From NCBI RefSeq assembly GCF_004526345.1, contig NZ_CP038213.1, positions 1,116,001 to 1,180,000 of the forward strand: 64,000 nucleotides of DNA, written 5' to 3'. This stretch comes from Ornithinimicrobium flavum (lineage in GTDB: Bacteria > Actinomycetota > Actinomycetes > Actinomycetales > Dermatophilaceae). Below are positions 2,522-31,440 of the stretch, piece by piece (the first letter of the stretch is position 1; each line of letters opens with the position of its first letter). The position numbers and the translations under genes are program-made. The notes under the pieces are model-generated. The model ran no database searches. It saw only the letters and a list, made by a program, of their open reading frames with translations, and was not told the origin of the DNA.

Positions 2522-3945
2522 GGCTCTTCACAGTTGAGGGTGTAGAGGGCGCTGGCGCGTCGGTCACGGGGTAGACGTCGAGGTCTTCCGATGATGGAGG
2601 TTCCTACGCCGCCCATCCGAAAGACCTCGACATGTCCGACGCTACCTTCACGCGCCCCGACCTGACTACCTTCGCCGGCCTGGACGACCTGGGTCTGGTG
2701 GTCACCGGCCAGCTGCTCAAGCCTGACCGTGCGGTGCTGGCCTGCCGGGTCCTCGAGCCGGACGACTGGTGCAAGCGGTGCGGCTGCCATGGCGTTCCGC
2801 GGGACACCGTGACCCGACAGCTGGCGCACGAGCCGTTCGGGTGGCGTCCCACCACACTGTTGCTCACCATCCGACGCTACCGGTGCACCGAGTGCAGCCA
2901 CGTGTGGCGTCAGGACACCACGGCCGCGGCCGAGCCACGGGCGAAGATCTCCCGCGCCGGGCTGCGGTGGGGCCTGGTCGCGATCGTGGTCGGCCACCTG
3001 TCGATGTCCCGGGTCGCCGAGGGCCTGGCGGTGTCGTGGAACACCGCCAACGACGCGGTCCTGGCCGAAGGACAGCGGCTGCTCATCGCCGACCCGACCC
3101 GGCTGGATGGCGTCCGTGTCTTAGGCGTGGATGAGCACGTCTGGCGGCACACTCGGCGTGGTGACAAGTACGTCACCGTGATCATCGACCTCACCCCGGT
3201 CCGCGACGGCACCGGCCCCTCCCGCCTGCTGGACGTCGTCGAGGGGAGGTCCAAGGCAGCGTTCAAGGACTGGCTCGCGCAGCGGGACCAGGCCTGGCGC
3301 GACGGGATCGAGGCCGTGGCCATGGATGGGTTCGCCGGCTTCAAAACCGCCACCACCGAGGAGCTGCCCGAGGCTGTGACGGTCATGGATCCATTTCACG
3401 TCATCCGGTTGGCCGGTGACGCCCTCGATGAGTGCCGCCGTCGCGTGCAGCAGGAGCTGCACGGGCACCGCGGCCGCAAGGGCGACCCCCTCTACTCCGC
3501 CCGTCGGACTCTGCACACCGGCGCCGACCTGCTCACCGACCGTCAGCACGAGCGTCTCGACAGGCTCTTCGCCGGCGATGAGCACGTGCAGGTCGAGGTG
3601 ACCTGGGGCATCTACCAGCGGATGATCCACGCCTACCGCGACCCCGACCGCGCCGGCGGCCGGACCGAGATGAGGTCCGTGATCGACGCCCTGACCGAGG
3701 GCGTCCCGGGGCCGCTGGTCGAGCTGCGCAAGCTCGGCCGCACCCTGGCCCGACGAGCCAGCGACGTTCTGGCCTACTTCGACCGGCCCCGCACCAGCAA
3801 CGGCCCTACCGAAGCCGTAAATGGACGGCTCGAGCACCTGCGCGGACTGGCCCTCGGGTTCCGCAACATCACCCACTACATCGCCAGAGCTCTCCTGGAA
3901 GCCGGCGGCTTCAGACCCCAACTACACCCTGGATTGTGAAGAGCC
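2522..3945 (+). mobile_element. Complete ISL3-family insertion sequence, 1424 bp
   Basis: The element is bounded by 24-bp imperfect terminal inverted repeats at 2522 to 2545 and 3922 to 3945, which match at 21 of 24 positions. Both begin GGCTCTTCACA and end GGGTGTAG. It carries one intact transposase gene and is flanked by 8-bp direct repeats, so it is structurally complete and the insertion is probably recent. It sits in the island between the HEPN-TOPRIM gene and the zinc-knuckle gene. Confidence 0.97.
2632..3939 (+). CDS. tnpA: ISL3-family transposase
   Basis: A 435-residue DDE transposase that moves the surrounding element. The N-terminus holds an ISL3-type zinc-finger arrangement (CKRCGC near residue 46 and CTEC near residue 86). 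The DDE core is visible as LGVDEHVW, AMDGFAGFK and the NGPTEAVNGRLEHLR segment, giving Asp, Asp and Glu. Length is normal for ISL3 and the frame is unbroken. The ATG at 2632 has no strong ribosome site. Its stop lies inside the right terminal repeat, six bases from the element end, which is typical of compact insertion sequences. Confidence 0.97.
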   Translation: MSDATFTRPDLTTFAGLDDLGLVVTGQLLKPDRAVLACRVLEPDDWCKRCGCHGVPRDTVTRQLAHEPFGWRPTTLLLTIRRYRCTECSHVWRQDTTAAAEPRAKISRAGLRWGLVAIVVGHLSMSRVAEGLAVSWNTANDAVLAEGQRLLIADPTRLDGVRVLGVDEHVWRHTRRGDKYVTVIIDLTPVRDGTGPSRLLDVVEGRSKAAFKDWLAQRDQAWRDGIEAVAMDGFAGFKTATTEELPEAVTVMDPFHVIRLAGDALDECRRRVQQELHGHRGRKGDPLYSARRTLHTGADLLTDRQHERLDRLFAGDEHVQVEVTWGIYQRMIHAYRDPDRAGGRTEMRSVIDALTEGVPGPLVELRKLGRTLARRASDVLAYFDRPRTSNGPTEAVNGRLEHLRGLALGFRNITHYIARALLEAGGFRPQLHPGL

Positions 3946-3953
3946 ACCATAGT
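3946..3953. repeat. Target-site duplication, right copy
   Basis: ACCATAGT, identical to 2514 to 2521, immediately follows the right terminal inverted repeat. The next 240 bases up to the zinc-knuckle gene show no convincing gene. Confidence 0.95.
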
Positions 3954-4193
3954 TGGCTGCAGCGCGACATGGCTGTGCGCTTGGAGCGCAACTGACTCCT
4001 CATTTCCCGCTGTCGGCCGTCTCAAGGTGCGTCATACCGCCGCGTATAGCCCCCTGTGGGTGCCCCCTCGACGACCCTTGTTCACCGCACTGCAAGCCTC
4101 CCACCGTCCTGGGTGGTTGCCACGATGGCTGGAACCCGCCCACCGTTCACATGCCGTCGGCGTGACAAGCGCGGCCCTGGGCAGCGCCGATCG

Positions 4194-4463
4194 CTAGTTT
4201 GGGCAGGTGCGGATGTTGTGGCCGGAAAGGCCACAACCACTGCACGTATAGGACCGGGTGCTCACCTCCGAGGGGCCGATGGAGGCGGTGTCGACCCGAC
4301 GGCTGACTTCGAACGAGCGCTCGGGCCAGCTGACTCGAAAGGTGGTCTCGGTCTGCCTCAGATCGACCCGCCGGTCGATCCCATTGTTGGTCTGCGCGAT
4401 CGCCTCAAAAGCGCGACGCGCAGGGTCTCCTGCGCTGCTGTTCCGTGCCACCTCTCGCGACAT
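4194..4463 (-). CDS. Small CCHC zinc-knuckle protein
   Basis: An 89-residue protein whose last 16 residues form CSGCGLSGHNIRTC, a C-x2-C-x4-H-x4-C zinc knuckle of the kind that binds single-stranded nucleic acid in retroviral nucleocapsids and eukaryotic RNA-binding proteins. The rest is polar, without signal peptide or membrane segment. The start is secure: ATG at 4463 preceded by AAGGAG at five to six bases. It lies downstream of the coiled-coil gene on the same strand, but with 326 bp between, so it probably has its own promoter. I know no named bacterial family; nucleic-acid binding is inferred from the motif. Confidence 0.7.
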   Translation of the reverse strand: MSREVARNSSAGDPARRAFEAIAQTNNGIDRRVDLRQTETTFRVSWPERSFEVSRRVDTASIGPSEVSTRSYTCSGCGLSGHNIRTCPN

Positions 4464-4789
4464 CACGTCTCCTTCTGTGCCCCATCCGGAAGGCAGATGG
4501 TACAAGCGATGTCCCCTGCGGTGCAATGCCCGTAGCGTCTCTAACCAAGGGGGAGACGTGGTCGGCTGCCTACGCATCCACGGAACGCCAGCACGCGCAG
4601 GCGATCCTGGACTGCCAGGCCCCACCGATCTCTGGCTGAGGGTCCGGAGGCCGGTTGGCCGCGGTTAGCCGTGGAGGCGCGGCGAGCGACGCAAAGACTC
4701 TGCGTGACTGGAACGCCGTCACGATGGCTCTGACGCAAGAGTCGGACTGTGCGGCCTCAAGGGGCTTGGGTCGGCACGCTGCCGCCCAC
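4464..4789. other. Gene-less stretch between coiled-coil and zinc-knuckle genes
   Basis: No frame here has convincing coding character on either strand. It contains the ribosome site of the zinc-knuckle gene at its left end and a hairpin at 4696 to 4743 near the end of the coiled-coil gene. Confidence 0.6.
4696..4743 (-). terminator. Compound hairpin after the coiled-coil gene
   Basis: The outer stem pairs GACTCT (4696 to 4701) with AGAGTC (4738 to 4743) and can be extended by GCGT with ACGC across a one-base bulge. An alternative inner stem pairs CGTGAC (4703 to 4708) with GTCACG (4718 to 4723). The two partly compete for the same bases. It lies about 50 bp beyond the stop of the coiled-coil gene, so a terminator is the simplest reading, though there is no T tract. 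Confidence 0.4.
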
Positions 4790-7622: not shown

Positions 7623-8918
7623 TCAGCGTGCGTATTGCTTTCGCAGGGCAGAGAGCCGCTGTCGGAGCGGTGTCCGAGGGACCTTGGCGAGGTTCAACGG
7701 TGGGTCCAGCTCGCGGAGGATGTCCGTCTCAAGGGCATTCAGCGTGTGCGCGTTCGCCACAGGGATGAGCACGACGCGCAGGTGGGCATGCATCCAGAAG
7801 GTGAGTCGTGCTTCGTCGATGGTCGGCTGCCCGTAGGCGTGCGCCAGCACGGAGCCGATGCTCCGACGAAGGGTAGAGAACTCGTTGTTCTTGCCCAAGT
7901 GCATGGTGGAGATGCGGCCCCAGAGGGTGTTTGACGAGATCGCGCCGCTCTTGCGAGTCGCCCCGGCGAGTCCGGCGTAGATGAGGCCAGGAGCGATCTC
8001 GTGCTCAAGCCCCGCGGACAGGTCCTTTGCTCCGGCGTCGTCGACCCACCAGCTGTACATTCCAGGAGATCGCAGGCCACTTCCAGCCGTCTCCAGGACG
8101 TCGTCGAGCGCCCTCGCCCCTGAGCGGTCTGAGAGTTGCACGACGATCTCAGCCACGTTGTCGGTGGGGGCAATCTTCTTATGGAGGTACCACGAGAGGC
8201 GCTGGCCAATCGTCATCCCCTTGAGCTGGTCGACGATGACGGCGCCCTTTGGGCTGACAGCCGCGTCGACGGCCTTGACGTAGGTCGATCCGGCATGGAT
8301 ATCAAGGATGCGGCCCCGAAGCGGGCCGACGGCCTGCTCCAGCTGCTGCGCCACTTTCTGGCCCCAGCGCGCCTGGTAGGCGGGGCCCGTCTTAGCGAGG
8401 TAGCAATCGTACGGCTCGAGCCATTCGTCGGGAGCAACCAGGCCGTGTTCAGCAGAGAGGATGTACCACGGCTTACCAGTGCTCTCGGCGTAGGCGCGCA
8501 TCTTCGCGAAGTAGGGCGAAGTGTAGAGCTCTTTCGCCGGTCCCCCGCATGTTTGCTTGCTCTTCACGCAGCCGATCAGCACGACGTCGGCTGCCGAAGG
8601 TACCGCAGGCCGGCTCGGAGATGTGAAGGGTGTCCCTGCGGGCCGTGCCGGGCCAGCCGGTATGAGGGAGCCGGCTTCACCCTTGCCCACGCTGAAACCC
8701 AGCTTCACTAGCAAGTGTTGGGCGCTTTGCGACTGGAACTCACTCTTGGCCAGGCCGGTGGCCAGCGCCAACACCTGCTTGACGGGCCACCGTGTCCCGT
8801 CGATGTCGACCCAGTACTGGTAGATCTTGTCAGGATGATGGTTCGCGAGACGCTTTCGCACATCGGTGTCCGACAACTCGAACCGCCGACCCGTGAGGGT
8901 GAACGAGATCGTGCCCAC
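7623..8918 (-). CDS. DUF6884 plus GIY-YIG domain protein
   Basis: A 431-residue multidomain protein. The GTG at 8918 is chosen because GGGAGG lies five bases upstream, although the frame stays open further. Residues about 1 to 85 form a small domain with RWPVKQVLALATGL that I cannot name. Residues about 115 to 240 match DUF6884 (LIGCVKSK, ELYTSPYF, ILSAEHGLVAPDEW, EPYD). The C-terminal part (GMYSWWV, GLIYAGLAG, NTLWGRI) matches the GIY-YIG-like family often fused to DUF6884. A nuclease or nucleotide-modifying activity is plausible. It is divergent from the helicase gene with 172 bp between the starts, so the two likely share a control region and function. Confidence 0.75.
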   Translation of the reverse strand: MGTISFTLTGRRFELSDTDVRKRLANHHPDKIYQYWVDIDGTRWPVKQVLALATGLAKSEFQSQSAQHLLVKLGFSVGKGEAGSLIPAGPARPAGTPFTSPSRPAVPSAADVVLIGCVKSKQTCGGPAKELYTSPYFAKMRAYAESTGKPWYILSAEHGLVAPDEWLEPYDCYLAKTGPAYQARWGQKVAQQLEQAVGPLRGRILDIHAGSTYVKAVDAAVSPKGAVIVDQLKGMTIGQRLSWYLHKKIAPTDNVAEIVVQLSDRSGARALDDVLETAGSGLRSPGMYSWWVDDAGAKDLSAGLEHEIAPGLIYAGLAGATRKSGAISSNTLWGRISTMHLGKNNEFSTLRRSIGSVLAHAYGQPTIDEARLTFWMHAHLRVVLIPVANAHTLNALETDILRELDPPLNLAKVPRTPLRQRLSALRKQYAR

Positions 8919-9090
8919 GAGCGCCTCCCTTCCGCTCTTCGGAGCTGCGCCACACTCCACTCTACGTGCGCGTTCTTGCTCGCTCACTGCGTTGCGCCGC
9001 TGATCTCCAGGACCCGACCGGGCAACAGGATAGGACGACGGGGGCCGCTCCCGCGGAACTCCATGAGTCCTCGTCTGACAAGCTGTGCGC

Positions 9091-12000
9091 ATGGAACTGG
9101 GGGTCTACGAGAAGCTGATCACGGCCCAACTGCGTGCCACGCTGCAGTCTTTGGAGACTGAGCATGAGGCGGCGGTCGTGCCCGACGCTGAGGCCGCAAC
9201 AGTCCTCAGCCGGCACGTTGGGGAGGTCCTCTCGCGCCGGCTCAGCGGGATCAGGACTGATGAGCAACGGTTGGCCCTGGTGAACAAAATCCTGCAGCAG
9301 GTGGAGCACGAAAGCGACGAGGTGCTACCGCCGACCTCGCAACTTGTGGCGGTTGTCAACGCGCAGGGGCCGGGGACGCCTAGCTCGATCAGGACACGTC
9401 CGGCGACGCCTCTCAGCGATGCGGCGCTACTGACCAATGCCAGAGGGGAACCCAACCTCGGGGCCGAGGTGAAGGCAGAGATGGCCTCGGCCGACGAGGT
9501 GGACCTCTTGCTGGCCTTCGTCAAGTGGCATGGCCTCCGACTGCTCACGCCAGAACTGAAGAGCCTGCGGGACCGCGGGGTTCCACTCCGCGTCATCACG
9601 ACGACGTACATGGGGGCCACCGAACGCAAGGCGCTCGACCGCCTGGTGGCCGAGTTCGGCGCGGAGGTCAGGATTCAGTACGACGCTCAGCGCACGCGGC
9701 TTCACGCGAAGGCGTGGATGTTCCGTCGGAAGACGGGTTATGACACGGCATACGTCGGCTCGTCCAACCTGTCACGTGCGGCCCTGCTTGATGGCGTGGA
9801 GTGGAACGTCCGTCTGTCGAGAGTCGCAACCCCCGCCCTCCTCGAGAAGTTCAAGGCGACGTTCGACACCTACTGGAATGACCGCACGTACGAGCTGTAC
9901 GACCCCGAACGTGACGGGGACCGTCTCGACGACGCGCTCGCCGAGGGCGCAGGTCGTAAGCAGCACTCCGGTGTCACGGTGACGCTGTCGGGACTAGAGG
10001 TCCGTCCGTTTCCCTACCAGCAGGAGATGCTCGAAGCCCTCGACGCCGAACGCAACGTTCACGACCGACACCGCAACCTTGTTGTGGCTGCAACTGGGAC
10101 AGGGAAGACGGTCGTCGCCGCCCTGGACTACCGCGGTCTCTGCGAGGCGGCCGGAGAGAGGCCCTCGCTGCTGTTCATCGCGCATCGACGCGAGATCCTC
10201 GAGCAGTCCCTGCGCACCTATCGTGAGGTCCTCGCAGATGGAGACTTCGGGGAGTTGTACGTCGGTGGATCGCGCCCAGAACGCTGGCGCCACGTCTTCG
10301 CCAGCGTGCAGTCGCTGACTGCATACGGGGTCTCCAACCTCCCCCGCGATGCTTACGACGTCGTCGTCATCGACGAGTTCCACCACGCCCAGGCAGCGAC
10401 CTACCGACGGATCTTGAACCACCTTCAGCCGCGAGAGCTCCTTGGCCTGACAGCCACGCCCGAGCGGACCGACGGGCTCGACGTCCGAGCCTTCTTTGAA
10501 GGTCGTACGGCCGTGGAGCTACGGCTGTGGGATGCCCTGGGCGCCGACCTCCTCTGTCCCTTCCACTACTTCGCCGTCGCGGACAACACGGATCTGCGCA
10601 ACGTGTCGTGGACGCGGGGGCGCTATGACGAGCACGAGCTCGAAAACGTCTACACCGGCAACAACGCTCGCGCTCAGATTGTCGTGCAGCAGCTACGCGA
10701 CAAGGTCCTTGACGTGGGTGCGATGCGCGGCCTGGGGTTCTGCGTCGGCGTGGAGCACGCCCGCTTCATGGCAGAGTCCTTCAACCGGGCGGGAATCCCC
10801 GCCAAGGCCGTGAGCGGCGACACCGCGCCAGCTGAGCGAGAGCAAGCGCTGCGAGACCTGCGGAGCAGGAAAGTCAACATCCTATTCGCGGCTGACCTCT
10901 ACAACGAGGGGCTCGATCTGCCCGACGTCGACACCGTCCTTTTCCTTCGGCCCACCGAGAGCGCGACGGTCTTCCTGCAGCAACTGGGCCGCGGTCTGCG
11001 CCGGACTCAGGACAAGGCAGTGCTCACCGTCCTGGACTTCGTCGGATACCACCGCAGGGAGTTCAGGTTCGAGCCAAAGCTGCGAGCGCTCACCGGAAGC
11101 ACCCGACGCGGACTCGTCCACGACATCGAGAAGGGCTTCCCCTTCCTGCCAGCCGGGTGCCAGATCGTCATGGATAGGCAGTCGCAGGCGATCGTGCTGG
11201 AGAACATCCGCACGCAGCTCTCCAACCGGTGGAGTCAGATCGTGGCGGAGCTGCGGTCCTACGGAGACCATGAGCTGGGGTCCTTCTTGGAGGAGTCAGG
11301 CGTCGAGCTCTCAGACATCCTGCGCCGCGGTGCCCACTCCTGGACCAAGCTTCGCCGCGACGCTGGGATGCCAAACCGCGGCGGTTCACCTCTAGAGGAC
11401 AAGCTGCTCAAGCGGATTCGGGCTTTCGCTCACGTCGACGACAAGGACCGAGCCGAGTCCTACCGTCGGCTGCTCTCAGACGACGCTCCGCCCTTCCACG
11501 AGTTGTCCCCGGCGGAGCAGAGGATGGCACGCATGCTCTTCTTCTCGGTGTGGCCAGACGGGGGCGGTCATGCCTCCTACGCCGCCGGGATGGACGCGCT
11601 TCGAGCGGAGGAGGCGACAAGGGATGAGTTGCGCAGTGTCGTCGACCTGTCCTTCGATGCGGCCCGTCACCGGACCCCGGCGCTTGCAGGTGCTCTGAGC
11701 GGTATCCCATTGCGTGTGCACGCGAGGTATCAGCGCGAGGAGGTACTGGCGGCGCTGGGCTACGCCTCTTTGGAGAGGAAGCCGAACTCTTTCCGTGAGG
11801 GAGTGCTGTATGCCGCCGACGCGAACGTCGACGCCTTCTTCGTGACGCTCAAGAAGTCGGAGGCTGACTATTCGCCGACGACGATGTACCGCGACTACCC
11901 GATCAGTCCCACTCTGTTCCACTGGGAGTCGCAGTCCACCACCTCGGTCGACTCGAAGACCGGCCGGCGTTACATCGAGGGCGCCAGCAACGTCCTCATC

Positions 12001-12168
12001 TTTGCCCGCGAGGAGCAGAAGGACGAGTTTGGGACCAGCCCGTACCTGTTCCTCGGCCCAGCGCACTACCGCAGCCACACCGGCGATCGGCCCATTGCGA
12101 TCACCTGGGAGCTCGAGCACCCGCTGCCAGCTGACTTCTTCGCCGCCGCAACCGTCGTCGCCGGCTGA
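9091..12168 (+). CDS. PLD-type nuclease / SF2 helicase / DUF3427 protein
   Basis: About 1025 residues. Domain order: helical N-terminus; phospholipase-D-like HKD domain (HAKAWMF near residue 205 and YVGSSNLS near 222); SF2 helicase core with Walker A AATGTGKT (about 333), Walker B IDEFHHA (about 427), motif III GLTATPERTDG, and motif VI QLGRGLRR (about 630); then a C-terminal DUF3427 region. PLD-helicase-DUF3427 fusions are common in bacterial accessory islands and are thought to act on foreign DNA. Here one catalytic HKD half is visible. ATG 9091 is preferred; an in-frame GTG at 9085 is possible. No strong ribosome site is seen. It ends 20 bp before the convergent hydrolase gene, which marks the island edge. 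Confidence 0.85.
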   Translation: MELGVYEKLITAQLRATLQSLETEHEAAVVPDAEAATVLSRHVGEVLSRRLSGIRTDEQRLALVNKILQQVEHESDEVLPPTSQLVAVVNAQGPGTPSSIRTRPATPLSDAALLTNARGEPNLGAEVKAEMASADEVDLLLAFVKWHGLRLLTPELKSLRDRGVPLRVITTTYMGATERKALDRLVAEFGAEVRIQYDAQRTRLHAKAWMFRRKTGYDTAYVGSSNLSRAALLDGVEWNVRLSRVATPALLEKFKATFDTYWNDRTYELYDPERDGDRLDDALAEGAGRKQHSGVTVTLSGLEVRPFPYQQEMLEALDAERNVHDRHRNLVVAATGTGKTVVAALDYRGLCEAAGERPSLLFIAHRREILEQSLRTYREVLADGDFGELYVGGSRPERWRHVFASVQSLTAYGVSNLPRDAYDVVVIDEFHHAQAATYRRILNHLQPRELLGLTATPERTDGLDVRAFFEGRTAVELRLWDALGADLLCPFHYFAVADNTDLRNVSWTRGRYDEHELENVYTGNNARAQIVVQQLRDKVLDVGAMRGLGFCVGVEHARFMAESFNRAGIPAKAVSGDTAPAEREQALRDLRSRKVNILFAADLYNEGLDLPDVDTVLFLRPTESATVFLQQLGRGLRRTQDKAVLTVLDFVGYHRREFRFEPKLRALTGSTRRGLVHDIEKGFPFLPAGCQIVMDRQSQAIVLENIRTQLSNRWSQIVAELRSYGDHELGSFLEESGVELSDILRRGAHSWTKLRRDAGMPNRGGSPLEDKLLKRIRAFAHVDDKDRAESYRRLLSDDAPPFHELSPAEQRMARMLFFSVWPDGGGHASYAAGMDALRAEEATRDELRSVVDLSFDAARHRTPALAGALSGIPLRVHARYQREEVLAALGYASLERKPNSFREGVLYAADANVDAFFVTLKKSEADYSPTTMYRDYPISPTLFHWESQSTTSVDSKTGRRYIEGASNVLIFAREEQKDEFGTSPYLFLGPAHYRSHTGDRPIAITWELEHPLPADFFAAATVVAG

Positions 12169-12188: not shown

Positions 12189-13250
12189 CTACGACCGCAC
12201 GGCATACCTCTCCAGCCACCCCGCCAACCACGCCGTCCCGTCCGGCTCCCGCCCGAGCGGCGTCAGCATGACCGTCATCGCCAGGTCGGTGCCAAGGGCG
12301 TCGCACGCCCAGGCGAGCTCGCCGCGGGGGGCGCCGAGGGCGAGCAGGGGCGTGCTGCCGTTGAGGGCGCCGAGCAGGCCACCGGTCACGGCGGAGGTCG
12401 CGGTCCTGTCCGGCGCGAAGGACGCCAGCGCCATGGCGAGGGGGAACTCCTCCGGCGCGGGGTGGGAGAGCACGGTGTAGACCGCGGCGGCCAGCACGGA
12501 CAGCGCCGTCCGGTCGGGTGCGAGCTCGGCCACCCGGTCGGGGTTGTGCGGGTCGGTCGTGGCGGCCAGCACCGCCGCACCGAGGCGGGCGGCGACGACG
12601 CCTGCGCCCTCGGCCTCCAACCGTTCGACCTCCTCCAGCCACGCGGTGTCCAGACCTCCCGGGTTCCTCAGGGCCGCCGCGCCCAGGCGGGCGCCGGCCG
12701 CGACGAGCGGGCCGATGAGCTCGTGGGAGTGGGTGGCGCGGGCGGCCTCGACCGCCGGCCACACGCAGTCCGGCCCCTGCTGCGCCACGAGCGTGGCGAA
12801 GGGCAGGGTCCGCACCAGGGCATGCGGCCCCAGGCTTCTCGGGCCGACGGCCAGCACCTCCGGGCCGTGCCGCAGCACGCGGACGGTGGCGGGCGCGCTG
12901 CCCCGGCGCACGGCATACCCGGGCACGTGCGACAGCAGGCTCTGACTGGAGCCGCGCTCGGGGGCGACCCCGGGGATCCCCTGCCCGACCGCCCACCGCC
13001 TCAGCGCGGCCAGGCTCTCGTGGCCCCAGTCGTGGTCGAGCCGGCGACCGGCCCGCTCCATCGTGCGGATCATGCCCTCGACCGTCGCGAGGGCCAACTG
13101 TGTCGCGACGCCGGCCGGGCGCACCGCGGCCTGGCTCATCAGGTGGTCGGCGCCGTCCCCGAGGGCGATTCCGTGCAGGATCCCGCGGGAGAGCTCGATC
13201 AGCTTGGCCAACCGGGCGGCGGACTGGAGATCCATGGTGTCCTCGCTCAT
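12189..13250 (-). CDS. Degenerate ADP-ribosylglycohydrolase-like protein
   Basis: A 353-residue helical protein of the ADP-ribosylglycohydrolase (DraG/ARH) fold. The N-terminal RGILHGIALGDG and the late TGGLLGALNG segment are recognisable. However, the metal-binding WSDDT motif and the late DTD motif of active enzymes, both present in its neighbour, are missing here, so it is probably not a hydrolase. Its ATG overlaps the stop of the upstream gene by four bases (ATGA), so the two are translated together. It may be a regulatory or binding partner of the active paralog; that is inference. Confidence 0.75.
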   Translation of the reverse strand: MSEDTMDLQSAARLAKLIELSRGILHGIALGDGADHLMSQAAVRPAGVATQLALATVEGMIRTMERAGRRLDHDWGHESLAALRRWAVGQGIPGVAPERGSSQSLLSHVPGYAVRRGSAPATVRVLRHGPEVLAVGPRSLGPHALVRTLPFATLVAQQGPDCVWPAVEAARATHSHELIGPLVAAGARLGAAALRNPGGLDTAWLEEVERLEAEGAGVVAARLGAAVLAATTDPHNPDRVAELAPDRTALSVLAAAVYTVLSHPAPEEFPLAMALASFAPDRTATSAVTGGLLGALNGSTPLLALGAPRGELAWACDALGTDLAMTVMLTPLGREPDGTAWLAGWLERYAVRS

Positions 13251-14698
13251 CGCTGGGCCTCCGTCCAGAGCAGGCCGTCGATGTCGCGGCCGAGGGTGGT
13301 GGAGATCGCGGCGGCCGCGGCCGGGGCGTCGGCGCCGAGCAGCACCGAGTAGCGCAGGGCCACCGACGGGGTCCGGTGGTGCGCCGCCACGCAGTGCAGC
13401 AGCACCCGCCGCCCCTCCTCGCGCAGCTCCCTCACCGCCCGGGCCGCGTCGTCGAGCGCCCACCGCAGGTGCTGGTGGCTGCCGGGGTCGTCGTCGTCCA
13501 CGATCCACGCGAGCGCGTGGTCCTCCGGCCGCACCCGCCCGGGCGCGATCTCATCACGACCCAGGCGGCACAGGGACACAACCGCGTCGACGCCGAGCTC
13601 CTCGACGCGCCCCAGGTCGGCGGTCGTCCCCAGGAGCACGTCGGGGTCCACGGGGTGCGGCAGGGCGAGCGGGCGCTGCCCGGTGCCCAGGTATGCAGTG
13701 CTCGGCCAGCCGGCCGCGTCGTCCCGGCCACCCCGGGCCGTAAGGATCGCCAGCCGCACCAGGTCGGGCGCTCGCAGCCCCGGCCATCCGTGGAGCTGCC
13801 GGGTCCAGGTGAAGGGGAGGCCGGAGGCGCCGTACCGCGCACCGAGCAGCCCGCCGGCGATGGCCGCGACCGTGTCGGTGTCGTGGCCGATCGCGATGGC
13901 GGTGCGCAACGCCTCGCCGACGTGGTCGGGGCTGGGCTCGGCCGGCAGCGTGTGCCAGATCGAGGACCACGCGGCCTGCAGGGCGGTGACGGTGAACCCG
14001 TTGGGGGTGAAGTGCCCAGGCGGGAGGGTCTCCGCCTCGTCGAGCCAGGCGGCCCAGGTCGACCGTCGGTCGGCCGGCAGCAGGTCGAGCCCGCCGCGCA
14101 CGTCGAGGGCCCCGTCGAGGACGGCGCGGCGCACCGCCTCCGACCACAGGACGCAGGAGTCACCGGCCAGCGGGTCGGCGTGGGTGAGCTCGGCGACCGC
14201 ACGGGCCGCCGCGGCCGTGGCGTCCCGGTCCTGGAGCCGCGTGAGCCCCACGACCGCGGTGCGCATGAGGGCACCGTTGCCGGCGGTGCGGCCGGTCCGC
14301 TCGTGCAGGTCGCGGGACGCCGTCCGGAGCACGTCGTGGCGGGGGACGGCCGGGTCGGCCCGCCGGGCAGCACGCAGGACGGCGCTGGTCTGCATCCCGA
14401 TGTCGGCCGGGCCGTCGTCGAGCCACCGCTCGAAGGCGGCGGCCACCGCGATCAGGCCCAGGTCGCCCGTCAGGTCCGCGCCGGTGGCCGAGACCTCGGC
14501 GATCGCGATCGCCATCTGCGTGTCGTCGGACCACTCGCCGGGGGCGTAACCGCCCAGGCCGCCGCCGCTCATCCGCGGGCCGGCCGCCGGGTCGAGGGCT
14601 GCGGTGCCGAACTCGTACGGGACGCCCAGGGCGTCGCCGACGGCCTGGCCGAGGAGCACGCCGGCCGCGCGGTCGGACTGGACTGTCGTGAGTCTCAT
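13247..14698 (-). CDS. ADP-ribosylglycohydrolase fused to dual-specificity phosphatase
   Basis: A 483-residue fusion. Residues 1 to about 300 are an ADP-ribosylglycohydrolase: GDALGVPYEF, WSDDTQMAIA (magnesium ligands) and GHDTDTVAAIAGG are all intact, so it should remove ADP-ribose from proteins or small molecules. Residues about 330 to 480 are a tyrosine/dual-specificity phosphatase with the HC-x5-R signature HCVAAHHRT near residue 435. The start at ATG 14698 has GGAGG five bases upstream. The following degenerate paralog overlaps by four bases. A sigma-70-like promoter (TTGACA at 14758 to 14753, TCTACT at 14734 to 14729) overlaps the shared operator. Confidence 0.9.
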   Translation of the reverse strand: MRLTTVQSDRAAGVLLGQAVGDALGVPYEFGTAALDPAAGPRMSGGGLGGYAPGEWSDDTQMAIAIAEVSATGADLTGDLGLIAVAAAFERWLDDGPADIGMQTSAVLRAARRADPAVPRHDVLRTASRDLHERTGRTAGNGALMRTAVVGLTRLQDRDATAAAARAVAELTHADPLAGDSCVLWSEAVRRAVLDGALDVRGGLDLLPADRRSTWAAWLDEAETLPPGHFTPNGFTVTALQAAWSSIWHTLPAEPSPDHVGEALRTAIAIGHDTDTVAAIAGGLLGARYGASGLPFTWTRQLHGWPGLRAPDLVRLAILTARGGRDDAAGWPSTAYLGTGQRPLALPHPVDPDVLLGTTADLGRVEELGVDAVVSLCRLGRDEIAPGRVRPEDHALAWIVDDDDPGSHQHLRWALDDAARAVRELREEGRRVLLHCVAAHHRTPSVALRYSVLLGADAPAAAAAISTTLGRDIDGLLWTEAQR

Positions 14699-14716
14699 GG
14701 TGACCTCCTTCATTCG

Positions 14717-14729
14717 TGTCACCCTGACA
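14717..14729. promoter_or_regulatory. Dyad TGTCA-CCC-TGACA in the hydrolase leader
   Basis: A perfect 5-bp inverted repeat with a 3-bp spacer, located about where transcription of the hydrolase operon should begin. It shares TGTC/GACA half-sites with the larger element at 14747 to 14774, so it may be a second binding site for the same regulator. Confidence 0.45.
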
Positions 14730-14746
14730 GTAGAGCGCGCCACCGA

Positions 14747-14774
14747 CATACCTGTCAACTCGACACAAAACGGG
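14747..14774. promoter_or_regulatory. 28-bp operator-like element, copy 1
   Basis: The element begins CATACCTGTC and, after four variable bases, continues CGACAC. It contains the dyad TGTC-N5-GACA at 14753 to 14765. It matches the element in front of nrtR (15367 to 15394) at 23 of 28 bases. On the minus strand it covers the TTGACA -35 box of the hydrolase operon; on the plus strand it sits upstream of a TAGCGT -10 box (14779 to 14784) that is seven bases from the SOUL ATG. It is the likely control point for both directions. Confidence 0.6.
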
Positions 14775-14791
14775 GGCGTAGCGTGACCGGC

Positions 14792-15355
14792 ATGACGGAG
14801 AAGCAGGTCTACGAGCTGGTCCAGACCTATCGCGACTTCGAGCTGCGGCGCTACCCATCGCACGTCGTCGCCGAGGTGGTGGTCCGGGCGCCGTTCGCGG
14901 ACGCGGGCAACGCCGCCTTCCGCACCCTCGCCGGCTACATCGGCGGGCAGAACCGGTCGGCCGGCAAGATCGCCATGACCGCCCCGGTCGTGCAGCGGGA
15001 CGCCGAACCGATCGCCATGACCGCGCCCGTGCTGCAGACCCAGGGCGACGGCGAGGGTGAGTATGCCGTCTCCTTCGTGCTGCCCTCGACCTACACCCTG
15101 GAGACCGCGCCGGTCCCGACCAACCCCGCGGTGCGGCTGCACGAGCACCCGACCACGCTGGCCGCCGCCCGCCGCTACCGCGGCCGGTGGACCCAGGCGT
15201 CCTTCGAGCACCACCGGGCCCTGCTGGTCGACGCGGTCCGGGGCGCCGGGCTGACCCCGGTGGGTCCGCCGCGGTGGGCCCGCTTCGACCCGCCGATCGT
15301 CCCCGCGCCCCTGCGGCGCAACGAGGTCGTGCAGGACCTGGCGGAGGACGGGTAG
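14792..15355 (+). CDS. SOUL family heme-binding protein
   Basis: A 187-residue SOUL/HBP protein. The family hallmark is visible: YELRRYP-like start (FELRRYPSHVVAEV), AFRTLAGYIGGQN, and the doubled KIAMTAPV / PIAMTAPV motif. SOUL proteins bind heme or related tetrapyrroles; their bacterial role is unclear. The message appears leaderless, since the TAGCGT -10 box ends seven bases before ATG 14792; an in-frame GTG at 14783 is the alternative. It is divergent from the ADP-ribosylglycohydrolase pair and shares the operator region with it. Confidence 0.9.
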   Translation: MTEKQVYELVQTYRDFELRRYPSHVVAEVVVRAPFADAGNAAFRTLAGYIGGQNRSAGKIAMTAPVVQRDAEPIAMTAPVLQTQGDGEGEYAVSFVLPSTYTLETAPVPTNPAVRLHEHPTTLAAARRYRGRWTQASFEHHRALLVDAVRGAGLTPVGPPRWARFDPPIVPAPLRRNEVVQDLAEDG

Positions 15356-15366
15356 CCGGCCCGCCC

Positions 15367-15394
15367 CATACCTGTCCTCCCGACACGAAACCGG
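15367..15394 (+). promoter_or_regulatory. 28-bp operator-like element, copy 2, before nrtR
   Basis: Begins CATACCTGTC, then four variable bases and CGACAC, with TGTC-N5-GACA at 15373 to 15385. It is followed by TAGCCT (15396 to 15401), a -10 box placed six bases before the GTG at 15408, so the nrtR message is probably leaderless and the element overlaps the -35 zone. This is the expected layout for autoregulation. Confidence 0.6.
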
Positions 15395-15407
15395 TTAGCC
15401 TCCTGGG

Positions 15408-16098
15408 GTGCCGCACACCTCGGAGTACCCGCCGTTCTACGTCACCGTCGACCTCGTCATCCTCACCGTGCGCGAGGGGGCCCTCGGCGTCCTGCTCGTC
15501 GAGCGGGGGAGCGAGCCGTTCGCCGGTCGGTGGGCCCTGCCGGGCGGGTTCGTCCACCTCGACGAGGACCTGCCGGACGCGGCCTACCGCGAGCTGGAGG
15601 AGGAGACCGGGGTCGGTCGTAGCGCGGTCCACCTCGAGCAACTGGCGACCTACGGACGGCCCGACCGGGACCCGCGCCACCGGGTCGTGTCCACGGCATA
15701 CCTGGCCGTCGGCGCCGACCTGCCCGAGGTGCGCGGCGGGTCGGACGCCGCGGACGCCCGCTGGTGGCCGGTCGGCCAGGCGCTCGGCCTGGACCTGGCC
15801 TTCGACCACCGGGAGATCCTCGGCGACGGGGTGGAACGGGCCCGCGCCAAGCTGGAGTACAGCGACCTCGCGCTGAGGTTCGTCCCCTCCCGGTTCACGA
15901 TGCCCGAGCTGCAGGCGGTCTACGAGACGGTCTGGGGTATGCCGCTCGATCCGCGCAACTTCGCCCGGAAGGTCGTGCGGACCGAGGGCTTCGTGACGGA
16001 GACGAGGGGAGGAGCGACGCGGGGGCCGTGGGCGACCGGCGAAGCTGTATGCGGCCGCGGGTGCGACCGAGCTGCAGCCGCCGCTGCGGCGCGACTGA
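15408..16098 (+). pseudogene. NrtR-like Nudix transcriptional regulator, C-terminal frameshift
   Basis: About 230 residues. The N-terminal Nudix domain has the box RELEEETGV with preceding GGFVHLDEDLPDAA. It is followed by the winged-helix part typical of NrtR (FTMPELQAVYETVWG, DPRNFARKV). NrtR proteins sense ADP-ribose and repress NAD-metabolism genes. The frame shifts at about 16003 to 16008: the +1 frame continues GRGRPAKLYAAAGATELQPP and stops at TGA 16096, which is the normal NrtR tail. One inserted base explains it. GTG start and leaderless promoter. Its neighbours consume ADP-ribose, which supports the assignment. Confidence 0.8.
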
Positions 16099-16165
16099 AC
16101 GGGGTCGGTCCGGTGGCGTGCTGGACCAGGGATCAGCGCGATCGTGGTGCTGGCGCCGCACGCGG

Positions 16166-16600
16166 GTGAGTGCCACCCTGAGTCATGACCACCGACCGGA
16201 CCCGGCGTCCCCGCGAGCCGCGCGGATCGTCACCCTCTCGCTCGAGGGTCTGACGATGGTGGGGGCCGCGGCGGGGGTGCAGGGGTTCCTGGCCGGCGCG
16301 TTCGACCCGCTCGTGGACCAGCTGCACGAGGCGTGGCCGCTGGTGGACGGGCGGGTGCTGCCGGCCGTGGCGCTCGGGGGCCTGGTCGCGGTGCCCCAGG
16401 GCGTCGCCCTGTTCCTCGGCCTGAGGCGCCACCCCCGGGCCGCGGACGCCGGCCTGGTCGTCGGGGTCGGCCTGGCGGCCTGGGTGCTGCTGCAGCTGCC
16501 GCTCATCGGGTGGGGCTCGCCGGTCCAGTGGCTCTTTGCCGGGGTCGGGGTCGCCCAGGCGGTCGGGGCGGCGGTGTGGCGCGCTGCAGCCCGACGTTGA
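16166..16600 (+). CDS. Small integral membrane protein
   Basis: A protein of about 144 residues with four predicted membrane segments (LTMVGAAAGVQGFLAG, VALGGLVAVPQGVALFLGL, GLVVGVGLAAWVLLQLPL, WLFAGVGVAQAVGAAVW). I do not recognise a family. The start is uncertain: GTG 16166 keeps the whole frame, and ATG 16256 would begin inside the first membrane segment. No strong ribosome site is visible. Confidence 0.6.
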   Translation: MSATLSHDHRPDPASPRAARIVTLSLEGLTMVGAAAGVQGFLAGAFDPLVDQLHEAWPLVDGRVLPAVALGGLVAVPQGVALFLGLRRHPRAADAGLVVGVGLAAWVLLQLPLIGWGSPVQWLFAGVGVAQAVGAAVWRAAARR

Positions 16601-29738: not shown

Positions 29739-30445
29739 GTTGCGTCCTTCTGGTCGGGGTGGTCGGGGTTCTCGGTCTGGTCGGGGTCCCCGGGAGGTCC
29801 GTCCGACGCTCCTGCGTGCAGGTCCGGGCCACCGTCGCCACGGGCGGCGATCGCCTCCTCGGTCAGCACCCCCGAGGTGAGGATCTCCGAGGCCGGGAGG
29901 ATGTAGGGCAGCACGTCGCCACCCTCCCCGAGCACGTCGGCGCCGAGCATCCGGTGCAGCTGCTCGTGCAGGATGAGGACGCCCATCGACCAGAGGGTGA
30001 GGACGACCATCCGGGCGCGGGGGTCCGCGGTGGGGCGGACCATGCCGGCGCGCTCGGCCTCGGCGGTGTACTGCAGAGCACTGTCCACCAGGTCGTCCAT
30101 CAGCGCGTCCAGGTGCGGGCTGCCCTCGACGAGGACCCGGGCCAGGTAGCGCAGGACGGAGCGTCCCTCGTCCATCCGCGAAACCATCGACACCAGGTCG
30201 GCGCCCGGGCCCTCCGCCATGGCCCGGCTCTTGGTCTCCCGGATGGTCCGCACGACCTGCTCGTCGCAGGCCTCCCGCAGGCCCTCCTTGGTGCCGTAGT
30301 GGTGGATGACCAGCGCCGGGGACACCCCGGCCTGTGCGGCGATCGCCTTCAGGCTGGTGCCCCGCACGCCCTGCGCGCCGAAGAGCTCGACGGCCACGGT
30401 GAGGATGCGGTCGCGGGCCGTGGGGGATTCATCCTGACTGAACAC
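29735..30445 (-). CDS. TetR family regulator of the ABC exporter
   Basis: A 236-residue TetR repressor. The helix-turn-helix is at residues about 12 to 55 ([43 protein letters not shown], cited by its flanking motifs RDRIL and HHYGTK). The C-terminal ligand domain is helical and ends in a Pro/Asp-rich tail. GTG start 30445. It is the first gene of the exporter operon and two inverted repeats lie at and just before its start, so it very likely represses its own operon until the exported drug binds. Confidence 0.9.
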
Positions 30446-30475
30446 ACAGTCAGCCTAGACTGAACGAGCGTTCAG
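30435..30475 (-). promoter_or_regulatory. Operator region of the TetR-exporter operon
   Basis: Two inverted repeats: CTGAACG-AG-CGTTCAG at 30460 to 30475 (perfect 7-bp arms) and TGACTG-N6-CAGTCA at 30435 to 30452, the latter spanning the GTG start at 30445. Both share a CTGA core. Perfect dyads next to a tetR gene are usual autoregulatory operators. Confidence 0.7.
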
Positions 30476-30621
30476 CCGCAAGGGGTGGAGCAGACGAGGG
30501 AGGGCCTGGGCGGCGCTCCCGCCAGGTCGAGACCAGGGTCCGGAGCCGCGAGGGAAGCACCAGGGCCTCGCCGTGCTTGTCACTGGAGCGTGTCCCGCGC
30601 ACCCCGACACGAAGGACCCCC

Positions 30622-31440
30622 ATGACCGACCAGCAGACGATCGTTCTCACCGGCGCCAGCGACGGCATCGGCGCCGCAGCTGCCCGCCAGCTCGCCGAGC
30701 ATGGGCACCGGGTGGTGGTCGTCGGGCGCTCGCCGGAGAAGACCGCGGCTGTCGCCGAGGAGATCGGCGCGCCCTTCCACGTCGCGGACTTCGCCGACCT
30801 CGCCCAGGTGCGGGCCCTCGCCGAGGAGCTCACGGCATACCCGCGGATCGACGTGCTCGCCAACAACGCCGGCGGCATCTTCACCCGGGAGACGACCGTC
30901 GACGGTGTCGAGAAGACGTTCCAGGTCAACCACCTGGCACCGTTCCTGCTGACCCACCTGCTGATGGACCGGCTCGTCGAGGCGGACGCGAAGGTCATCC
31001 AGACCTCGAGCATCGGGCATCGCGCCTTCGGGAGGATCGACCTGGACGACCTGGACAACAGCCGGGCGTGGAACGCCAACAAGGCCTACGGCGACGCCAA
31101 GCTGGCCAACGTGCTGTTCACCAAGGAGCTGCACCGCCGGTACGCCGACCAGGGCGTCAGCGCGGCGGCCTTCCACCCCGGCGGCATCGCGACCAACTTC
31201 GCCAACGACACCAGCAGCGTGATGCGGTTCGCCTACCACACCCCGATCCGCCACCTCATGACGAGCGTCGAGACGGGGGGCCGGCGGCTGGTGTGGCTCG
31301 CCGAGGGCACCCCCGGGGTGACGTGGCGGTCGGGGGAGTACTACGAGAGGAACAAGCCCGGCAAGGTCAACCCGCAGGTCCACGACGAGGACCTGGCGCG
31401 AGGGCTGTGGAAGCGCAGCGAGGCGATGCTCGGCCTGTGA
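30622..31440 (+). CDS. Short-chain dehydrogenase/reductase
   Basis: A 272-residue Rossmann-fold oxidoreductase of the retinol-dehydrogenase-like SDR group. The coenzyme loop GASDGIGAA (residues about 10 to 18), NNAGG, the catalytic Ser region VIQTSSIGH and Y-x3-K (AYGDAKLAN) are present. Arg after VVVGR suggests NADP use. Substrate unknown. GAAGGA lies six bases before ATG 30622. It is divergent from the TetR operon. Confidence 0.88.
   Translation: MTDQQTIVLTGASDGIGAAAARQLAEHGHRVVVVGRSPEKTAAVAEEIGAPFHVADFADLAQVRALAEELTAYPRIDVLANNAGGIFTRETTVDGVEKTFQVNHLAPFLLTHLLMDRLVEADAKVIQTSSIGHRAFGRIDLDDLDNSRAWNANKAYGDAKLANVLFTKELHRRYADQGVSAAAFHPGGIATNFANDTSSVMRFAYHTPIRHLMTSVETGGRRLVWLAEGTPGVTWRSGEYYERNKPGKVNPQVHDEDLARGLWKRSEAMLGL

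Follow-up and report, generated by a model that had tools for sequence, protein, structure and literature searches.

A putative NrtR operator system at an ADP-ribosylglycohydrolase-phosphatase gene of Ornithinimicrobium flavum

A 64,000 base pair (bp) stretch of Ornithinimicrobium flavum DNA (contig NZ_CP038213.1, positions 1,116,001–1,180,000; referred to here as the window) carries, at 12189–16169, a locus of four genes: from left to right, a degenerate-looking ADP-ribosylglycohydrolase-like gene and a gene for an ADP-ribosylglycohydrolase fused to a phosphatase-like domain (both on the minus strand), followed by a SOUL gene and nrtR (both on the plus strand). The locus is best read, from its sequence, as a conserved NrtR operator system on the hydrolase-phosphatase gene. 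Systems of this kind have been predicted in the literature, and control by NrtR of a module removing ADP-ribose is, in our view, the likely explanation for it. To the published prediction this locus appears to add operators given explicitly as a pair, an apparently intact Nudix box, a second hydrolase that is degenerate, and a slip of one base in the nrtR frame. The 13-bp palindrome, paired at 34–39 bp, puts the proposed ADP-ribose switch within reach of a direct test. The features are listed in Table 1.

Table 1. Features of the locus and its helicase neighbour (coordinates in the window).
Feature	Coordinates	Strand	Remarks
Hydrolase-phosphatase	13247..14698	-	ADP-ribosylglycohydrolase residues ~3-327 and dual-specificity-phosphatase-like domain ~342-483
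Operator 1 (predicted)	14717..14729	.	TGTC-N5-GACA, TGTCACCCTGACA; 18 bp before the start codon of the hydrolase
Operator 2 (predicted)	14753..14765	.	TGTC-N5-GACA; overlaps TTGACA on the hydrolase strand; now just upstream of SOUL
Operator 2' (predicted)	15373..15385	.	Close copy of operator 2, preceding nrtR
NrtR (Nudix and winged helix)	15408..16169	+	PF00293 1.7e-20; PF21906 1.8e-10, profile 4-44 of 61
Second ADP-ribosylglycohydrolase-like protein	12189..13250	-	PF03747 3.3e-12; predicted catalytically dead
SOUL-domain protein	14792..15355	+	PF04832 9e-41; probably a bystander (synteny, ortholog promoters)
Helicase with PLD domain and DUF3427	9085..12168	+	PADLOC mREase_IV, 1202 bits; neighbour, given as context

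Operator elements and their conservation

The first-pass annotation of this DNA described two 28-bp elements, each containing TGTC-N5-GACA and matching at 23 of 28 bases. Both were recovered (14747–14774 and 15367–15394), and their identity exceeds the best ungapped match found in 300 Markov shuffles (at most 20, mean 15.0); the overlap claimed between the first element and the hydrolase -35 also holds, as TTGACA is present on the hydrolase strand at 14758–14753. The count of two fell short, since there are three such palindromes and operator 1 had been missed. Operator 1, which has counterparts in the intergenic regions of relatives, lies 36 bp from operator 2, and operator 2 resembles the operator 2 that precedes nrtR in genomes G030 and G026. 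TGTC-N5-GACA occurs 16 times in the genome (6 times for the reversed-pattern control), with three of these occurrences inside 669 bp of this locus (Poisson P for at least three palindromes per 700 bp, about 5e-9). The two elements are the only exact matches in 3.71 Mb to the extended motif TACCTGTCN5GACACNAAA, for which tolerance of three mismatches yielded three extra matches, versus two for the reversed control.

Conservation was assessed in 80 named nrtR loci, drawn with Nudix-box peptide patterns from among the matches listed and nearly all actinobacterial (53 Streptomyces by our labelling; a few are not Actinomycetes, with one Dormiibacter and two Acidimicrobiia). In 70 of them nrtR has GTC-N5-GAC no more than 120 bp upstream, where shuffles lead one to expect 2.9 and 485 of 7518 background windows contain it. 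Of the 23 genus groups represented, 18 have the motif at their nrtR promoters, and it could therefore help to map actinobacterial NrtR targets. An actinobacterial NrtR motif may, reportedly, already have been printed by Rodionov et al. in 2008, and the motif is not claimed as new. A spacer of 5 was found at 70 loci and one of 8 at 36, with seven other spacers at 1–9 loci each, and the outer bases are complementary at 78 of 88 proximal sites, versus 211 of 486 sites elsewhere in the same loci.

A family-level search of 186 genomes for the hydrolase gave 64 matches in 61 genomes; 30 were examined and 10 had a divergent nrtR. All ten divergent intergenic regions (window included) contain GTC-N5-GAC, with 18 sites in total (shuffle mean 0.29, maximum 5 in 2000 shuffles), and operator pairs 34–39 bp apart, between the divergent hydrolase and nrtR genes, are present in eight, in support of the first-pass annotation. 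The nrtR-proximal operator holds GTCAA in 8/10 of these regions (by eye), a half that reads TTGAC on the hydrolase strand; the overlap with a -35-like hexamer is therefore largely conserved. The operators also persist where the hydrolase is absent or truncated. In G026, nrtR adjoins the same helicase as in O. flavum, with neither hydrolase nor SOUL, and is preceded by two operators spaced 36 bp apart (CGTCCTACTGACA, whose GTC-N5-GAC core is kept, and TGTCAAACGGACA). In G030 (L035:3835-7404), the hydrolase match ends at residue 331 and a hydrolase fragment (4300–4563) abuts an ISL3-like transposase piece (3835–4329), while nrtR and both operators remain.

Given its presence at 70 of the 80 nrtR loci, its pairing, the preference for a spacer of 5 and the complementarity of its outer bases, GTC-N5-GAC is best taken to be the operator of NrtR. 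A lack of conservation upstream of nrtR orthologs, named in the first-pass annotation as grounds for rejecting the element, is contradicted by the same count. A chance or structural origin of the 28-bp repeat, unrelated to NrtR, is extremely improbable: no point in favour of it was found, and it is at odds with the conservation at nrtR, the paired operators, the rarity of the extended motif, the spacer preference and the shuffle test.

Several observations nevertheless weigh against an NrtR-controlled ADP-ribose module. Control hydrolases without an adjacent nrtR for the most part lack GTC-N5-GAC, which favours the NrtR reading, but it does lie within 120 bp in 2/20 and within about 310 bp in 7/20. 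Only 10 hydrolase loci out of the 30 inspected have a divergent nrtR. Among the 80 named nrtR loci, L125 alone has this fused hydrolase divergent from nrtR, and it carries just one exact site; divergent pairing is therefore a minority layout for NrtR. A scan of 14600–15450 for sigma-70-type promoters found none, and no PADLOC model matches the hydrolase-phosphatase (nor does any match the second hydrolase-like protein). The printed nrtR frame departs from that of the orthologs at about 15996–16020, inside the winged-helix region, in a three-frame comparison. The reported operator of Mycobacterium smegmatis NrtR, GTTTTCGA-N7-TCGAAAAC, differs from GTC-N5-GAC, and Corynebacterium glutamicum NdnR has been reported to respond to nicotinamide adenine dinucleotide (NAD), not to ADP-ribose. 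NrtR motifs are described as varying widely between groups (PMC4666351).

Other arrangements are found around nrtR in the named loci. Ten Streptomyces loci (L131, L132, L135, L136, L140, L147, L157, L166, L170, L173) have another ADP-ribosylglycohydrolase-like frame downstream of nrtR and co-directional with it (26–28% identity; L131 confirmed by Pfam), and the pairing of NrtR with a hydrolase may therefore have come about in two or more layouts. In L118:4853-5893, L126:4868-5896 and L155:4992-5939, the gene divergent from nrtR encodes an SPFH/Band 7 protein (3/3 Pfam-tested), with twin GTC-N5-GAC operators (34 bp apart) only in L126; eight further named loci have sites 33–34 bp apart, several of them with a similar-looking divergent frame. 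Jiangella has a gene of the Sir2 family downstream of nrtR (L117:6819-7682).

Predicted proteins and the proposed switch

The predicted fold of the hydrolase-phosphatase is that of ARH/DraG fused to a dual-specificity-phosphatase fold, with the HC-X5-R signature of the phosphatase-like domain at residues 435–442. It shares its fold and metal-ligand motifs with ADP-ribosylglycohydrolases of the DraG and Tri1 types, from which it differs in carrying a phosphatase domain and in scoring far below the equivalog cut-offs (94.5 versus 337.05 for DraG, TIGR02662; 87.3 versus 490 bits). The genome has two matches to the ADP_ribosyl_GH profile, both at the locus. The "hydrolase pair" of the first-pass annotation is thus retained for its first member, a hydrolase with a phosphatase domain, whereas the second looks degenerate: SDD is absent and the HDTDT motif lacks its second Asp, the same residues being absent from the aligned G013 ortholog, and a sequence search of the PDB gave no credible match for this protein.

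The nrtR product combines a Nudix domain with the NrtR winged-helix domain, and is the only protein in the genome to match PF21906 (NrtR_WHD); its score against the NCBIfam equivalog NF050029 is below the cut-off (137.3 versus 400 bits). Its Nudix box looks intact. The Nudix signature is strictly matched in 9/10 hydrolase-linked orthologs, whereas the signature of NAD-type NrtR proteins is reported to be impaired; the 77 intact boxes among the 80 named loci are biased by the pattern-based draw and are not used as evidence. The end at 16098 previously given for nrtR belongs to another frame, in which the ortholog-like C-terminus lies, and the printed frame runs to 16169. This apparent one-base slip is either an assembly error in a G-rich run or a damaged winged helix; the switch may therefore be broken here, unless the assembly is wrong. 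It is possible, on a clearly minor share of the probability, that decay of the module is under way in this lineage, the winged-helix end of NrtR having been lost and the hydrolase being constitutively on. The frame slip is consistent with this, as are the pieces of nrtR next to the G001 helicase, the nrtR without hydrolase in G026, and the internal-stop or partial-coverage hydrolase matches of several family genomes, including G030; against it, G-rich runs are prone to assembly error, and neither the operators nor the two hydrolase domains show obvious damage.

In the NrtR-controlled module that we favour, NrtR dimers on the paired GTC-N5-GAC operators would repress both the hydrolase-phosphatase gene and nrtR, with one operator near the expected hydrolase transcription start and the other over the -35-like hexamer, upstream of nrtR. 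A rise in ADP-ribose or a relative, for example when the hydrolase strips ADP-ribosylated proteins, would release NrtR and switch the module on, a step modelled on the NrtR family; the signal would then be consumed by the fused phosphatase domain and possibly also by the Nudix site of NrtR itself. The operators, their pairing, their tie to nrtR and the predicted domain folds can be read from the sequence, and from these and from related proteins we infer NrtR binding, repression, the ligand, the substrates and a role in phage defence. As the Nudix signature is strict in 9/10 hydrolase-linked orthologs, NrtR might even cleave the ADP-ribose that it senses and destroy its own inducer, in a self-resetting switch with SOUL captured between its operators, an idea that we regard as doubtful.

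It has to be considered whether NrtR here mainly regulates NAD synthesis or salvage, the hydrolase being one target of a wider regulon. General knowledge of the NrtR family points in this direction, as does G029 (L041), in which nrtR lies directly downstream of a nicotinamidase-like frame (by eye). The genome, which is 99.73% complete, has no match for NadA, which suggests that the organism may depend on NAD salvage. A weak match to NAPRTase was found, with no GTC-N5-GAC within 250 bp upstream of its start (other salvage genes were not tested). As for the 13 exact palindromes elsewhere in the genome, eight are inside frames passing a codon filter, two are outside such frames and three are without any passing frame; one of the two outside adjoins a gene that we take to be LysR-like. 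Inspection of flanks and frames recognised no NAD gene beside any of the 13, the context of three being left undetermined, and none was taken as an NrtR operator. Occurrence of the element at many unrelated genes, the other ground for rejection named in the first-pass annotation, is on this count only partly decidable. NAD-type NrtR proteins have NAD-gene targets, whereas none was found here among the genes tested, and a primary role in NAD metabolism is thus improbable.

The SOUL gene

The SOUL gene was proposed in the first-pass annotation as a functional member of the regulon. Its adjacency is probably accidental, and conservation gives no support to a functional link. In the 186 family genomes, SOUL has a match in 26, the hydrolase in 61 and both in 12. 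The two genes are together in this genome only; in the other 11 they are on different contigs (nine genomes) or more than 0.9 Mb apart (two genomes), and draft contigs cannot fully exclude a link. Of 25 SOUL orthologs in other genomes (L098 and L099, second pieces in G075 and G148, having been dropped; L095–L097 are partial, with uncertain starts), 23 have no GTC-N5-GAC in the 250 bp upstream. The two exceptions, with an element about 84 bp upstream in L076 and over the start codon in L082, do not have it at the equivalent place. In the synteny comparison (tblastn at 1e-15), G017 has the order helicase, SOUL and VTT, and nothing in between matches the hydrolase or nrtR. G013 has a degenerate hydrolase, a gene 91% identical to the window frame 30442–31440, SOUL and VTT together, the hydrolase and nrtR being on another contig.

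The left flank of operator 2 (SOUL side) and the right flank of operator 2' (nrtR side) each resemble, by eye, the single operator 2 region of G030, as would be expected if a rearrangement had duplicated about 28 bp around SOUL. The 28-bp repeat thus probably marks the rearrangement that placed SOUL, in this lineage, between two copies of operator 2. Because of this position SOUL may be repressed in passing, without being a conserved part of the module. Selected membership, with heme or tetrapyrrole handling responding to ADP-ribose release, seems unlikely. Operator 2 does end 13 bp upstream of TAGCGT (14779–14784), a hexamer similar, by eye, to the one seen at many SOUL orthologs, and all eight palindrome bases are kept in both operator copies, but their being spared by five mismatches is unremarkable (about 0.16), and membership also fits poorly with the togetherness of hydrolase and SOUL in 1/12 genomes, the 23 orthologs lacking the element and the G017 SOUL gene, flanked by helicase and VTT genes where no module is present. 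A PDB search by sequence found no relatives of SOUL at 1e-3, and the PADLOC matches of SOUL and NrtR (about 20 bits) were discounted as weak.

Relation to described systems and genomic setting

ADP-ribosylglycohydrolase (ARG)-centred systems with a phosphatase and a Nudix-helix-turn-helix (Nudix-HTH) or WYL regulator have been predicted (Iyer et al., 2022; PMC9503650, section 3.8). In the circuit set out there, released ADP-ribose de-represses a hydrolase-phosphatase operon via the Nudix-HTH protein, countering ADP-ribosylation by phage. The same source gives a fused or adjacent phosphatase in a little over 55% of neighbourhoods and a Nudix-HTH or WYL regulator in over 42% of systems, and describes no coupling to an ADP-ribosyltransferase or sirtuin and variable accessories (restriction/helicase, chaperone, ARPP). 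The O. flavum locus has the ADP-ribosylglycohydrolase domain (profile match and fold), the Cys-based phosphatase of the rhodanese-phosphatase superfamily and the one-component Nudix-HTH regulator, and a helicase of the mREase_IV type adjoins it as a possible restriction/helicase accessory. No ADP-ribosyltransferase or sirtuin was found among the 13 Pfam-scanned window proteins (not every frame was scanned), and no chaperone was recognised among the proteins scanned. It thus shares with these systems the hydrolase-phosphatase fusion, the Nudix-HTH neighbour, a candidate helicase/restriction-type accessory next door and the proposed ADP-ribose feedback, whereas the text of section 3.8 names no operator sequence, SOUL gene or degenerate second hydrolase. 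The feedback loop with a phosphatase, which the first-pass annotation held to be new, is therefore already in print; of its interpretation the operator at nrtR and the hydrolase stands, and SOUL membership and the novelty of the loop do not.

With the NrtR proteins of NAD metabolism described in M. smegmatis (MsNrtR) and Shewanella oneidensis, the O. flavum protein shares the Nudix and winged-helix domains, the autoregulatory position and a palindromic operator. In the literature searched, PMC9503650 alone pairs an ADP-ribosylglycohydrolase with NrtR, and searches for NrtR with ADPRH and for bacterial SOUL heme-binding proteins with ADP-ribose returned nothing.

The setting of the locus agrees with a defence role. 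The succession of helicase, hydrolase and then nrtR recurs in a Propionibacteriaceae metagenome-assembled genome, where one operator site matches exactly, and the same helicase adjoins nrtR in G026 and nrtR fragments in G001. Linkage to the helicase was rejected as a general rule, the genes being adjacent in one of 22 family genomes with both helicase and hydrolase (this one; many of the others are drafts with the genes on different contigs). On the far side of the type IV restriction-like helicase, a gene with DUF6884 and GIY-YIG domains (7623–9092) overlaps it, and there is an ISL3 transposase at 2632–3939; together with this transposase, the region 7623–12168 is a probable defence island.

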